Shown one piece after another: positions 1,443 through 39,223 of a stretch of 48,349 bases of DNA. The translations under genes and the position numbers were made by a program. Each line of letters begins with the position of its first letter. The stretch's first letter is position 1. The notes beneath the pieces are model-generated. The model saw nothing but the letters and a program-made list of their open reading frames with translations. It was not told the DNA's origin and made no database searches. Origin of the DNA: an uncultured Verrucomicrobiota bacterium (lineage in GTDB: Bacteria > Verrucomicrobiota > Verrucomicrobiia > Limisphaerales > CAIQOK01); the NCBI GenBank assembly GCA_903873415.1, contig CAIQOK010000183.1:1-48349 (forward strand), read 5' to 3'.

Positions 1443-1565
1443 CGCGCCATCATAGCGGGGCGGGGGGACAAGTTCAAACCGTGAATTAAATCAAAAAACG
1501 GGGCGGTCCAAGCCAACATGATTTTTACAACCAGAGTGCATTATGAATGACGTTAAATGGATGAA

Positions 1566-1866
1566 CCTAGAACCCGAAGTTGGAGTTCAGCCGGATCGGG
1601 TGGGCGGGGCATACGACGGGATCATCAGTGGTTCGACGGGGGATTTGCCGCAGAAAGTACCTGGGGACAAGGGTTGCTGCGCCCGGGACGGGCGTAGTCT
1701 GCAAACCAAAACCGTCGCCTTGGGATTCCAACTGCTGCGCAGTTGTCGCAAACCACGTCCGCTCGTAGCGGCCTTTCAACACCTGCCACCATTCCGCTTT
1801 CACCGCCAGCTTGAGCGTGCGTTGCCGTCCACTTATTGACCACCACTTCAATTGCGGACATTTGGG
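1566..1866. repeat. Dispersed MITE-like element, internally deleted copy
   Basis: About 300 bp related to the 587-bp element at 17917-18503 but in the opposite orientation. The CCTAG end at 1566 matches the CCTAA end of the other copy, followed by a shared GTTGGAGTTCAGCCGG block at about 1579-1594. A core of some 135 bp (about 1630-1765) is roughly 85% identical by eye, including the hairpin CGCCCG-GGA-CGGGCG at 1680-1694. The other end (ACCACTTCAATTG, about 1840-1853) matches the opposite terminus of the full copy. About 290 bp of the full element are missing from the middle. No clear target duplication is visible, so the outer limits are approximate. Confidence 0.75.
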
Positions 1867-17830: not shown

Positions 17831-17916
17831 CAGTTTTGGTAAACAGTTTGGTAAACGGTTGGCGATTGTCAGGGGCGGTTTTTGGCCTCATGGACTTCAT
17901 GATCTACAGGCTTGAT

Positions 17917-18503
17917 CCTAATCTCCACAATTGAAGTGGTGGTTAAGGAGTGAAGGAGTGAATAAAACCGGGGGCGATGAGCGTTTTTGCTTCGTTGGTT
18001 TCGGTTCGCCTGGCGGGTGAAGGAAAGGATGAGAGTTCCTTGGACAACTTGCCGGGTAAATTCACGGTCAAACGAACAAAAGAGGTCCTCACGCCTTGTG
18101 GCGGCCTGGCTGCGTGGAGCGGCTTTCTCGAGCACCCCGGGATCACCCGCACGATCAGTTCCGGAAGCGCCCGGGAATGAAATCGCGGTGTATGTGCGGA
18201 CCCGGATCAGGGCGTGGCGACGCCAGAACGGGTGGCACTGCTCTATGGCGGTGAATGGGGAGTGGTGGCAGATGTTGAAAGGCTGCCACGAGTGGCTGCG
18301 GACGTGGTTGGCGACAACTGCGCCGGAGTTGCAATCCCAAGGCGACGGTTTGGGTTTGCGGGGTGCGCCCGTCCCGGGCGCAGCAACCCTCGTCCCCGGC
18401 GGCTTTCTGCGCCAGATCGCCCGCAAAACCATTGATGTGCCCCTCGAATGGCTTGCCCGCCGCGCCCGCTCCGCCCGGCTGAACTCCAACTGCGGGTTTT
18501 AGG
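17917..18503. repeat. MITE-like dispersed element with target duplication
   Basis: A 587-bp unit bounded by CCTAA (17917) and TTAGG (18503). The two ends form imperfect terminal inverted repeats of about 23 bases (15 of 23 matching, including CCTAA and a TTGRAGT core). TTGAT occurs directly outside both ends (17912-17916 and 18504-18508), as expected for a 5-bp target duplication. A related, internally deleted copy in the opposite direction lies at 1566-1866. An 85-codon frame (18245-18502) ends with TAG inside the right terminus. No transposase domain is recognisable, so if mobile it would be non-autonomous. Confidence 0.7.
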
Positions 18504-18707
18504 TTGATTCACTTGGGAACGGCAATAATGGAGGGCATGAATGGGAAAGCGGAAAATGGAAAGGGCCGTGAATCCTGCAGCCGGACGGATTGATTCGTTT
18601 TTTCTAAACATCAGTAGCAAGAGAGAACCGCACGCATTCCGATGACTAAGGGATTTGTGGATTTCGCGCACCGATGAGGGAATGTGGCCAATGCGGGATG
18701 GTAGTGG

Positions 18708-18795
18708 CAGGGCGAGCCACTCCGTGCGCGCCGTCGCGGCGGAATAGAAAACGAGGTTTGGCAATAGCGGCTGGCAGTGGATTGCCCGCCCTGCC
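18708..18795. repeat. Short inverted repeat, possible structured intergenic element
   Basis: GGCAGGGCG (18708-18716) pairs perfectly with CGCCCTGCC (18787-18795) across about 70 bases. Intergenic modules built on GGCAGGGC/GCCCTGCC arms occur repeatedly in PVC genomes. Only one copy is in the window, so the repeat status is inferred. Confidence 0.35.
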
Positions 18796-18879
18796 AAGGC
18801 GTTTTTTAAATTTGCTGTCCGGGATTTTTGTCTGGGATTTTTTTTGCATCTTTGAGGGGATTGCGATTAAATAAAAGCT

Positions 18880-28610: not shown

Positions 28611-29382
28611 TTGTTGCCCGGTTGCAATCTCTTTTTACGTGCATACGAAGGCTGGTCCAATTTTAAGACGACTCTGAAGCGGCTCACAAAAAAGATTGCT
28701 GGTTCCACCTGCGACTGGATATCACTGAGGAAGTCTCCACTCGCGCGGACAGCTGCTCATGGATGTCTGGAACCGCCTCGCCAAGATCGATCGCATCAAT
28801 CGTCGGAAACGGCTGACCTCGGGCTTTGCCTCGATCGCTTTTATGTCTCCGATCATGCCGGGTTTTGCTTCCGGGACTTCGTCGAGCTGGTTGGGCTGGC
28901 CGAGTGCGCCGATCAAAGCGCCTTGGGTGAATGGCTGCAGGCTCAATCCCCCAAGAGTGTTGAGGCGATCATGAGTGTCAACTGGGACTTGGTAGCTGAA
29001 GTGGATTTCTTGGAGCTCCAGAAGGGTGATCTGTCTATAGCAACCCCGGTCCAAAACAAATTCCAAGCTCCGAAGGAGCGGCGCAAAAGGCAGATGAGCA
29101 ATCCCGGCAAATTTAATTTATTTTGCGCGTGTTCTTCGCCATCGCCGCTTTGCCGCACTGTGTCGCCCCTACCGGGGCTGCGGATCCATAGACAGACCGA
29201 GATGGTGGGGCTGCGCCTCCGGCTCTTGAAAGCAAGGCAAGAGGCCAATGGATAACGGACAGGGGGCAGGGGGATTCCGGTGCGAAGGACGGAGTGTGCA
29301 AGGAAAGCCCAAAGCAATGTTGCATGAGGAGGCCTTTGAGGCGCAATTGGCCGGCTATGATCTCAGAATTCTGGAAAAATAA
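28611..29382 (+). other. Decayed intergenic region with possible gene fragments
   Basis: No intact gene is recognisable between lpxA and the LamG gene. One plus-strand frame contains a protein-like stretch at about 28815-29040 (FCFRDFVELVGLAECADQSA, then LGEWLQAQSPKSVEAIMSVN and more). Another ends at 29382 with MLHEEAFEAQLAGYDLRILE. Neither matches a family I can name. They may be pieces of one degraded gene split by the REP-like repeat at 29065. Chance open frames are also possible. Confidence 0.3.
29065..29180 (+). repeat. REP-like intergenic repeat, copy A
   Basis: Starts with the hairpin AGCTCC-GAA-GGAGC and contains a TTTTGCGCGTGTTCTTCGCC block and a CGCCCCTACCGGGGCTG hairpin near the far end. 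A clearly related copy lies on the other strand at 38676-38805. Dispersed modules with GCTCCGAAGGAGC and CGCCCCTACGGGGC hairpins are common in PVC intergenic DNA. Confidence 0.7.
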
Positions 29383-38675: not shown

Positions 38676-38805
38676 AACGCCCCAGTCCCGGCAGGGGCGG
38701 CACGGTGCGGCAAGGAGCAACCGGCAAGGGCGAAGAACACGCGCAAAACAAATTGGATTTCCCTGGATTGCGCGTCTGCCGTTTGTGCCGCTCCTCCGGA
38801 GCTTC
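38676..38805 (-). repeat. REP-like intergenic repeat, copy B
   Basis: Read on the minus strand it starts with AGCTCC-GGA-GGAGCGG and includes GCGCAATCC, TTTTGCGCGTGTTCTTCGCC and a CCGCCCCTGCCGGGACTGG end. The order and spacing match copy A at 29065-29180. Confidence 0.7.
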
Positions 38806-39223
38806 TAGAAAGACAATTCAGGCACGAAGTCCCGGTTGACACTCATGATCATGACCGCATCAACCCTCTTGGAGGATCGGGCCCGCAGTCATTCGCCCAA
38901 AGTGCCTGGACTGGCGCACTTGGCCAGCCCAATCAGCCCGGCGAGCACTTGGTCTTGCCCCAGCCGAGTCCGGCCAAGAGCTGCTGTTAGTGAAGGGGGA
39001 AATGCCGGCAGCTAAGTGACTGGTTGCAAGAGCGGAGTGTGGGGCCGGGTTCCGGGGCGTGGGATTTGTGCTGCGCCAGCTCCCGCAGCGGTCTAACCGC
39101 CGCATGGTGGGCGGGTGGGCGGCGAGGGAGATCAGGGAATTTAGGGCGGCGGCGAAGCATTGCCCCACCTTTGGCACCGGGGAGCGGATTAATAGGCTTA
39201 TCAATCCGCCCCCGTGGATGGGG
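38806..39223. other. Intergenic region, no gene recognised
   Basis: Between the repeat and the ThuA-like gene. Open frames are arginine/serine-rich with no family likeness. A hairpin-capable segment near 39190-39215 (GGATTAATAGGC... to ...ATCAATCC) lies just after the ThuA-like stop and could help termination. Confidence 0.45.

Follow-up and report, generated by a model that had tools for sequence, protein, structure and literature searches.

Insertion sequences of the IS1380 family (NCBIfam NF033539), among them IS1247, ISPme1, ISEcp1 and the verrucomicrobial members in SXTU01000053.1 and JAHCLO010000075.1, have CCTAA...TTAGG ends and make a 5-bp target duplication, a length reported for IS1247 (PMC3281130). 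ISPme1 and ISEcp1 also mobilise the DNA adjoining their 3' end, using a downstream end that resembles their own (PMC9330008). The family also serves as the outgroup for the eukaryotic piggyBac superfamily (PMC10813416). The other systems relevant here are the bacterial MITEs derived from insertion sequences (IS) and similar deletion derivatives, which keep the ends, lose the interior, occur in many copies and must depend on a transposase acting in trans. In a search of the open literature, titles and abstracts revealed no IS1380-derived MITEs.

The element considered here lies in the window, i.e., the whole 48,349-nt stretch of DNA that was analysed. It has the ends, the 5-bp duplication and the target preference of the IS1380 family, and its transposase remnants stand in the same order; unlike an intact member, it is non-autonomous, its transposase gene being lost or disrupted over two thirds of its length, and it has an extra 57-nt hairpin insert. 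The IS-derived MITEs are similar in their general plan, from which this family differs in its size, large by MITE standards, in having long coding remnants and several size classes, and in having its parent identified only in other genomes. We believe that the element is non-autonomous and almost certainly arose by internal deletion from an insertion sequence of the IS1380 family; the deleted forms were presumably multiplied by a transposase in trans.

The element and its intact relatives

The initial annotation described a 587-bp element flanked by TTGAT on both sides and ending in imperfect inverted repeats; both points are borne out, as are its boundaries (Table 1). When the 24 bases at the left end are compared with the reverse-complemented 24 at the right end, 15/24 positions match, a value reached in 0.025% of trials with the shuffled element, and the chance of a perfect 5-bp duplication at fixed boundaries is about 1/1024. 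The left end CCTAATCTCCRCA and the right end GCGGGTTTTAGG are also the ends of the elements in genomes G174, G148 and G100.

Table 1. Features of the element, its second copy and their surroundings (window positions; IS, coordinates of the intact relatives)
Feature	Position	Strand	Basis
Left target-site duplication TTGAT	17912..17916	.	sequence; fits NTNAN
Whole element, 587 bp, almost certainly a non-autonomous internal-deletion derivative of an IS1380-family insertion sequence	17917..18503	+	collinear BLASTN match to the intact elements of G148 (1578 bp) and G174 (1581 bp)
Left terminal inverted repeat, CCTAATCTCCACAATTGAAG...	17917..17940	+	same end as CCTAATCTCCGCAGTTGAA of the intact relatives
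Transposase N-terminus remnant (MSVFASLVSVRLAGEGKDESSLDNLPGKFTVKRTKEVLTPCGGLAAWSGFL...), then frameshift and stop	17977..18150	+	60% amino acid identity to the G174 transposase; 72% DNA identity to IS positions 1-224
Degenerate piece of the transposase from the part preceding the catalytic-Glu region (IS ~1029-1130), joined by deletion to the N-terminal piece	18146..18245	+	68% DNA identity; junction common to at least 7 copies
Remnant of the C-terminal part of the transposase (..EWWQMLKGCHEWLRTWLATTAPELQ..), IS ~1376-1473	18246..18343	+	83% DNA identity over 98 bp; preceding junction common to 6 copies
In-frame 57-nt insert with G+C-rich hairpin (core 18365-18381), between GGCGAC and GGCGGC	18347..18403	+	alignment; intact relatives lack the insert
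Transposase C-terminal tail and right terminal inverted repeat R_A (CTGAACTCCAACTGCGGGTTTTAGG)	18404..18503	+	77% DNA identity over the last 44 bp
Right target-site duplication TTGAT	18504..18508	.	sequence
Second copy, 300 bp: left end fused to IS position ~1355 onward, same hairpin insert, R_A end	1566..1865	-	alignment
Start (44 nt) of the B segment, the ~390-nt stretch found after R_A in composite copies	1522..1565	-	82% identity to the B-segment query

No transposase had been recognised in the initial annotation, and the family had been taken to be undescribed. Neither point is supported: what fills the element is an IS1380-family transposase gene, degenerate and with internal deletions, and two verrucomicrobial genomes from the host's order contain intact elements that share its ends. 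Frameshifts, stops and deletions leave no intact transposase ORF in the window element, and a Pfam scan of its own reading frames gave no match; the family was recognised only through consensus remnants and intact relatives. The sister copies are more legible and yield two consensus pieces, MSTFASLVSVHLAGEGKDEISLDTLPGKFTVTRTKEVLTPYGGLAAWSGFLKHLGI and DLFRETPGDEIAVYVTGLDRGEATPEQVALLYARRADTETVFDELKNQWGFRGYCSRKTVVSQLA, the second of which is a transposase DDE domain (Pfam DDE_Tnp_1, 8.5e-6). In these copies the catalytic-Glu-proximal piece continues to ..YARRADTETVFDELKNQWGF, and the catalytic-region remnant, extended by a few residues of another copy, matches the NCBIfam IS1380 model at 3.8e-10.

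Among the 196 genomes of the order that were searched, G174 (513 codons) and G148 (512 codons) have both pieces in a single ORF. The consensus remnants have about 70% amino acid identity to these intact transposases; for the remnants of the window copy, identity to the G174 protein is 60% and 41%. The G174 protein scores above the cut-off of the NCBIfam IS1380 model (183.5 bits vs 180) and also matches Pfam DDE_Tnp_1_4. The two intact elements end in TTTAGG, and that of G174 lies within a perfect ATAAA duplication. Four stretches of the window element follow the parent collinearly, at IS positions 1-224, 1029-1130 (a match obtained via the G174 copy), 1376-1473 and 1535-1578. A direct BLAST comparison of the element with one batch of PF13701 loci yielded no convincing match; these loci represent other IS1380 groups.

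The hairpin insert (19 codons) stands between the last two parent-matching stretches in all type-A copies that keep this part; it is bordered by GGCGAC in most copies and is absent from five intact or partial relatives.

The copy at 1566-1865 was correctly described as shorter, internally deleted and in the other orientation; it did not, however, arise from the first copy simply by deletion, since it has insertion-sequence bases (GGACGGCAACGCACGCTC...) that are missing from 17917-18503; it is thus the outcome of a separate deletion in a longer parent. Its flanks, TTGGC and TTCAT, form no target duplication.

Copies in the host genome and the second right end

The host assembly is a 3.8-Mb draft in 189 contigs. 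The two copies of the initial annotation are not the only ones, a finding that would have counted against it: in the search of the host's own genome the element matches 48 stretches, and the left end is found 21 times with at most 3 mismatches, compared to 0 for the reversed control pattern. Together with the tails of a second right end, R_B (43 matches), the family pieces merge into about 61 places, or roughly 0.5% of the genome. This count is probably too low, since for 14 of the places a contig end is less than 700 bp away. When the host and 38 relatives (39 genomes in all) were searched at the DNA level, copies appeared in the host alone; the relatives gave no more than short matches, most of them to the hairpin.

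R_B is similar to R_A. All or part of one noncoding segment of about 390 nt that ends in R_B (the B segment) directly follows 11 of the 20 R_A ends examined, so that composites of R_A, B segment and R_B occur in the genome; in the window the start of the segment is visible at the second copy, not at 17917-18503. Other copies (C176, C172 and C21) span from the left end to R_B without R_A. Near-duplications seen at copies of this left-to-R_B form are TTCAA/TTTAA, TTAAA/TTGAA and CTCAA/TTCAA.

Considering the precedent of ISPme1 and ISEcp1, it is tempting to propose that an IS1380 derivative captured about 390 bp of 3' DNA closed by R_B as a surrogate end, and that the use of both right ends gave copies ending at R_A, such as the window element, along with copies ending at R_B. 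The adjacency of the segment to R_A, the approximately 40 R_B tails in the genome and the near-duplications of the copies ending at R_B all agree with this proposal. On the other hand, R_B is closer to R_A than a chance surrogate end is expected to be, the nesting of one family member beside the right end of another explains the arrangement equally well, and R_B tails with no recognisable left end are common. We consider such a capture possible but hold it with reserve. The composite copies do resemble the transposable modules of ISPme1 and the ISEcp1 units in having 3' DNA bounded by a second, similar right end; in contrast to those modules, the window copy has no extra segment, there is neither a passenger gene nor an autonomous transposase, and the second end of the family is better conserved than a typical surrogate. 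The composite copies form a natural series for the study of right-end choice by IS1380 transposases, the step whereby ISEcp1 and ISPme1 acquire neighbouring genes.

A repeat of about 100 nt at 18709-18807 (reverse strand GGCAGGGCGGGC...GCGACGGCGCGCACGGAGTGGC...CGCCCTGCC) is also a part of the B segment of composite copies; a stretch close to the C150 copy has 83% identity to it.

Movement, target sites and origin

One deletion junction is identical in six copies (C183, C140, C77, C85, C176 and C177) and another in at least seven. The flanks of ten copies have nothing in common except one unrelated repeat of about 100 nt, which is a separate element. Junctions shared in unrelated flanks are what the transposition of already deleted forms would produce. 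Amplification of whole elements with subsequent parallel decay does not account for them. Another possibility is that full-length copies decayed separately in place and the deleted forms never moved. The copies are indeed degenerate, and some, such as 1566-1865, have private deletions; nevertheless, identical junctions at six and at least seven loci contradict decay in place for the main group, and we regard it as very improbable as a general account, although single copies may have arisen in this way.

Transposition is also supported by target duplications. When the 5-bp flanks on the two sides of 14 copies are compared, 48 of 70 positions match, vs 40.6 on random re-pairing (P = 0.005), which indicates duplications beyond a shared target preference. 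The window copy, with TTGAT on both sides, is the only one in the host genome with a 5/5 duplication; the others match at 4/5 or less, and decayed duplications occur among them. An empty site was sought at the orthologous ppdK locus of the only congener, G001: ppdK is present (77% DNA identity) and the element is absent, but the intergenic flank is not alignable and no exact empty site emerged.

The initial annotation read these copies as a classical MITE family, one that would have no relation to a known transposase gene. The small size, the many copies, the inverted ends, the target duplication and the lack of an intact ORF speak for this reading; it is refuted by the homology of the element to intact IS1380 elements, which is collinear and covers most of its length except the hairpin insert, and we give it practically no credence. 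What remains of that reading is that the element is non-autonomous and multicopy, has terminal inverted repeats and a target duplication, and has transposed, as its constant ends and shared junctions indicate. A MITE would have a short and essentially non-coding interior; at 587 bp, most of it remnants of a transposase gene, the element is better called an IS internal-deletion derivative.

As to the preferred origin from an IS1380-family parent, the following course of events is suggested. An element of about 1.58 kb with CCTAA...TTAGG ends and one transposase of about 500 amino acids would once have been resident in this verrucomicrobial lineage. One copy would have gained the hairpin insert and then lost internal parts of the transposase gene, first from the N-terminal to the catalytic-Glu-proximal part and next from that point to the C-terminal part. 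The deleted forms, having kept both ends, would have been amplified by transposase in trans, each insertion duplicating 5 bp at an NTNAN site (mostly TTNAA); one product of this process is the window element.

Such movement presumably took place before the last transposase died. All copies seen are degenerate, and no functional transposase of the group was found in the host draft, where its intact gene was sought and only 29 fragments were recovered; because of this the family is probably extinct, or nearly so, in the host, and judging from the sequence its present-day mobility is unlikely. A locus at C158:51065-52270 (L050) contains an intact frame of 557 codons whose transposase domain is distantly IS1380-like. 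It was set aside as a partner, the sequence being distant and no matching left end being seen; the frame is possibly a different or immobilised IS1380 member.

What is new here is that the repeat now has, as far as sequence comparison can tell, a known parent, an IS1380-family insertion sequence. The 60-odd pieces of the family can be annotated as IS1380 derivatives, which gives this repeat of a verrucomicrobial genome a named identity.

The target of the family is NTNAN, mostly TTNAA. Among 45 full-length IS1380 relatives, whose boundaries were picked partly by duplication and not by base identity, 21 have an exact 5-bp duplication, and all 21 (five of them insertions of one Dechloromonas element) have T in the second and A in the fourth position (loci L125-L204). 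Our literature search found no paper linking IS1380 with TTNAA; the NTNAN (TTNAA-like) target recalls the TTAA target of piggyBac. The rule is a simple, testable property of the IS1380 family. The combined proposal, namely that the present family is a miniature transposable module derived from an IS1380 element, in which transposition uses either of two right ends, and that IS1380 transposases as a group insert at palindromic NTNAN (TTNAA-like) sites, seems to us rather unlikely to hold as a whole.

Minor observations

The hairpin insert GGNGTGCGCCCGTCCCGGGCGCAGCAACC also stands alone elsewhere in the host genome (e.g., in C107), and the hairpin unit is likewise found by itself in further genomes of the order. 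Its folding is no better than that of shuffled sequences (z -0.91), and no Rfam RNA family was matched. Of 78 genomes from the order, 16 contain the core with at most 1 mismatch, vs 0 matches of the reversed control pattern; the unit may be a small mobile palindromic repeat. The window also contains an inverted-repeat pair at 28967-29150 and 38719-38850, about 9.6 kb apart, with 82-85% identity over 56-86 nt.
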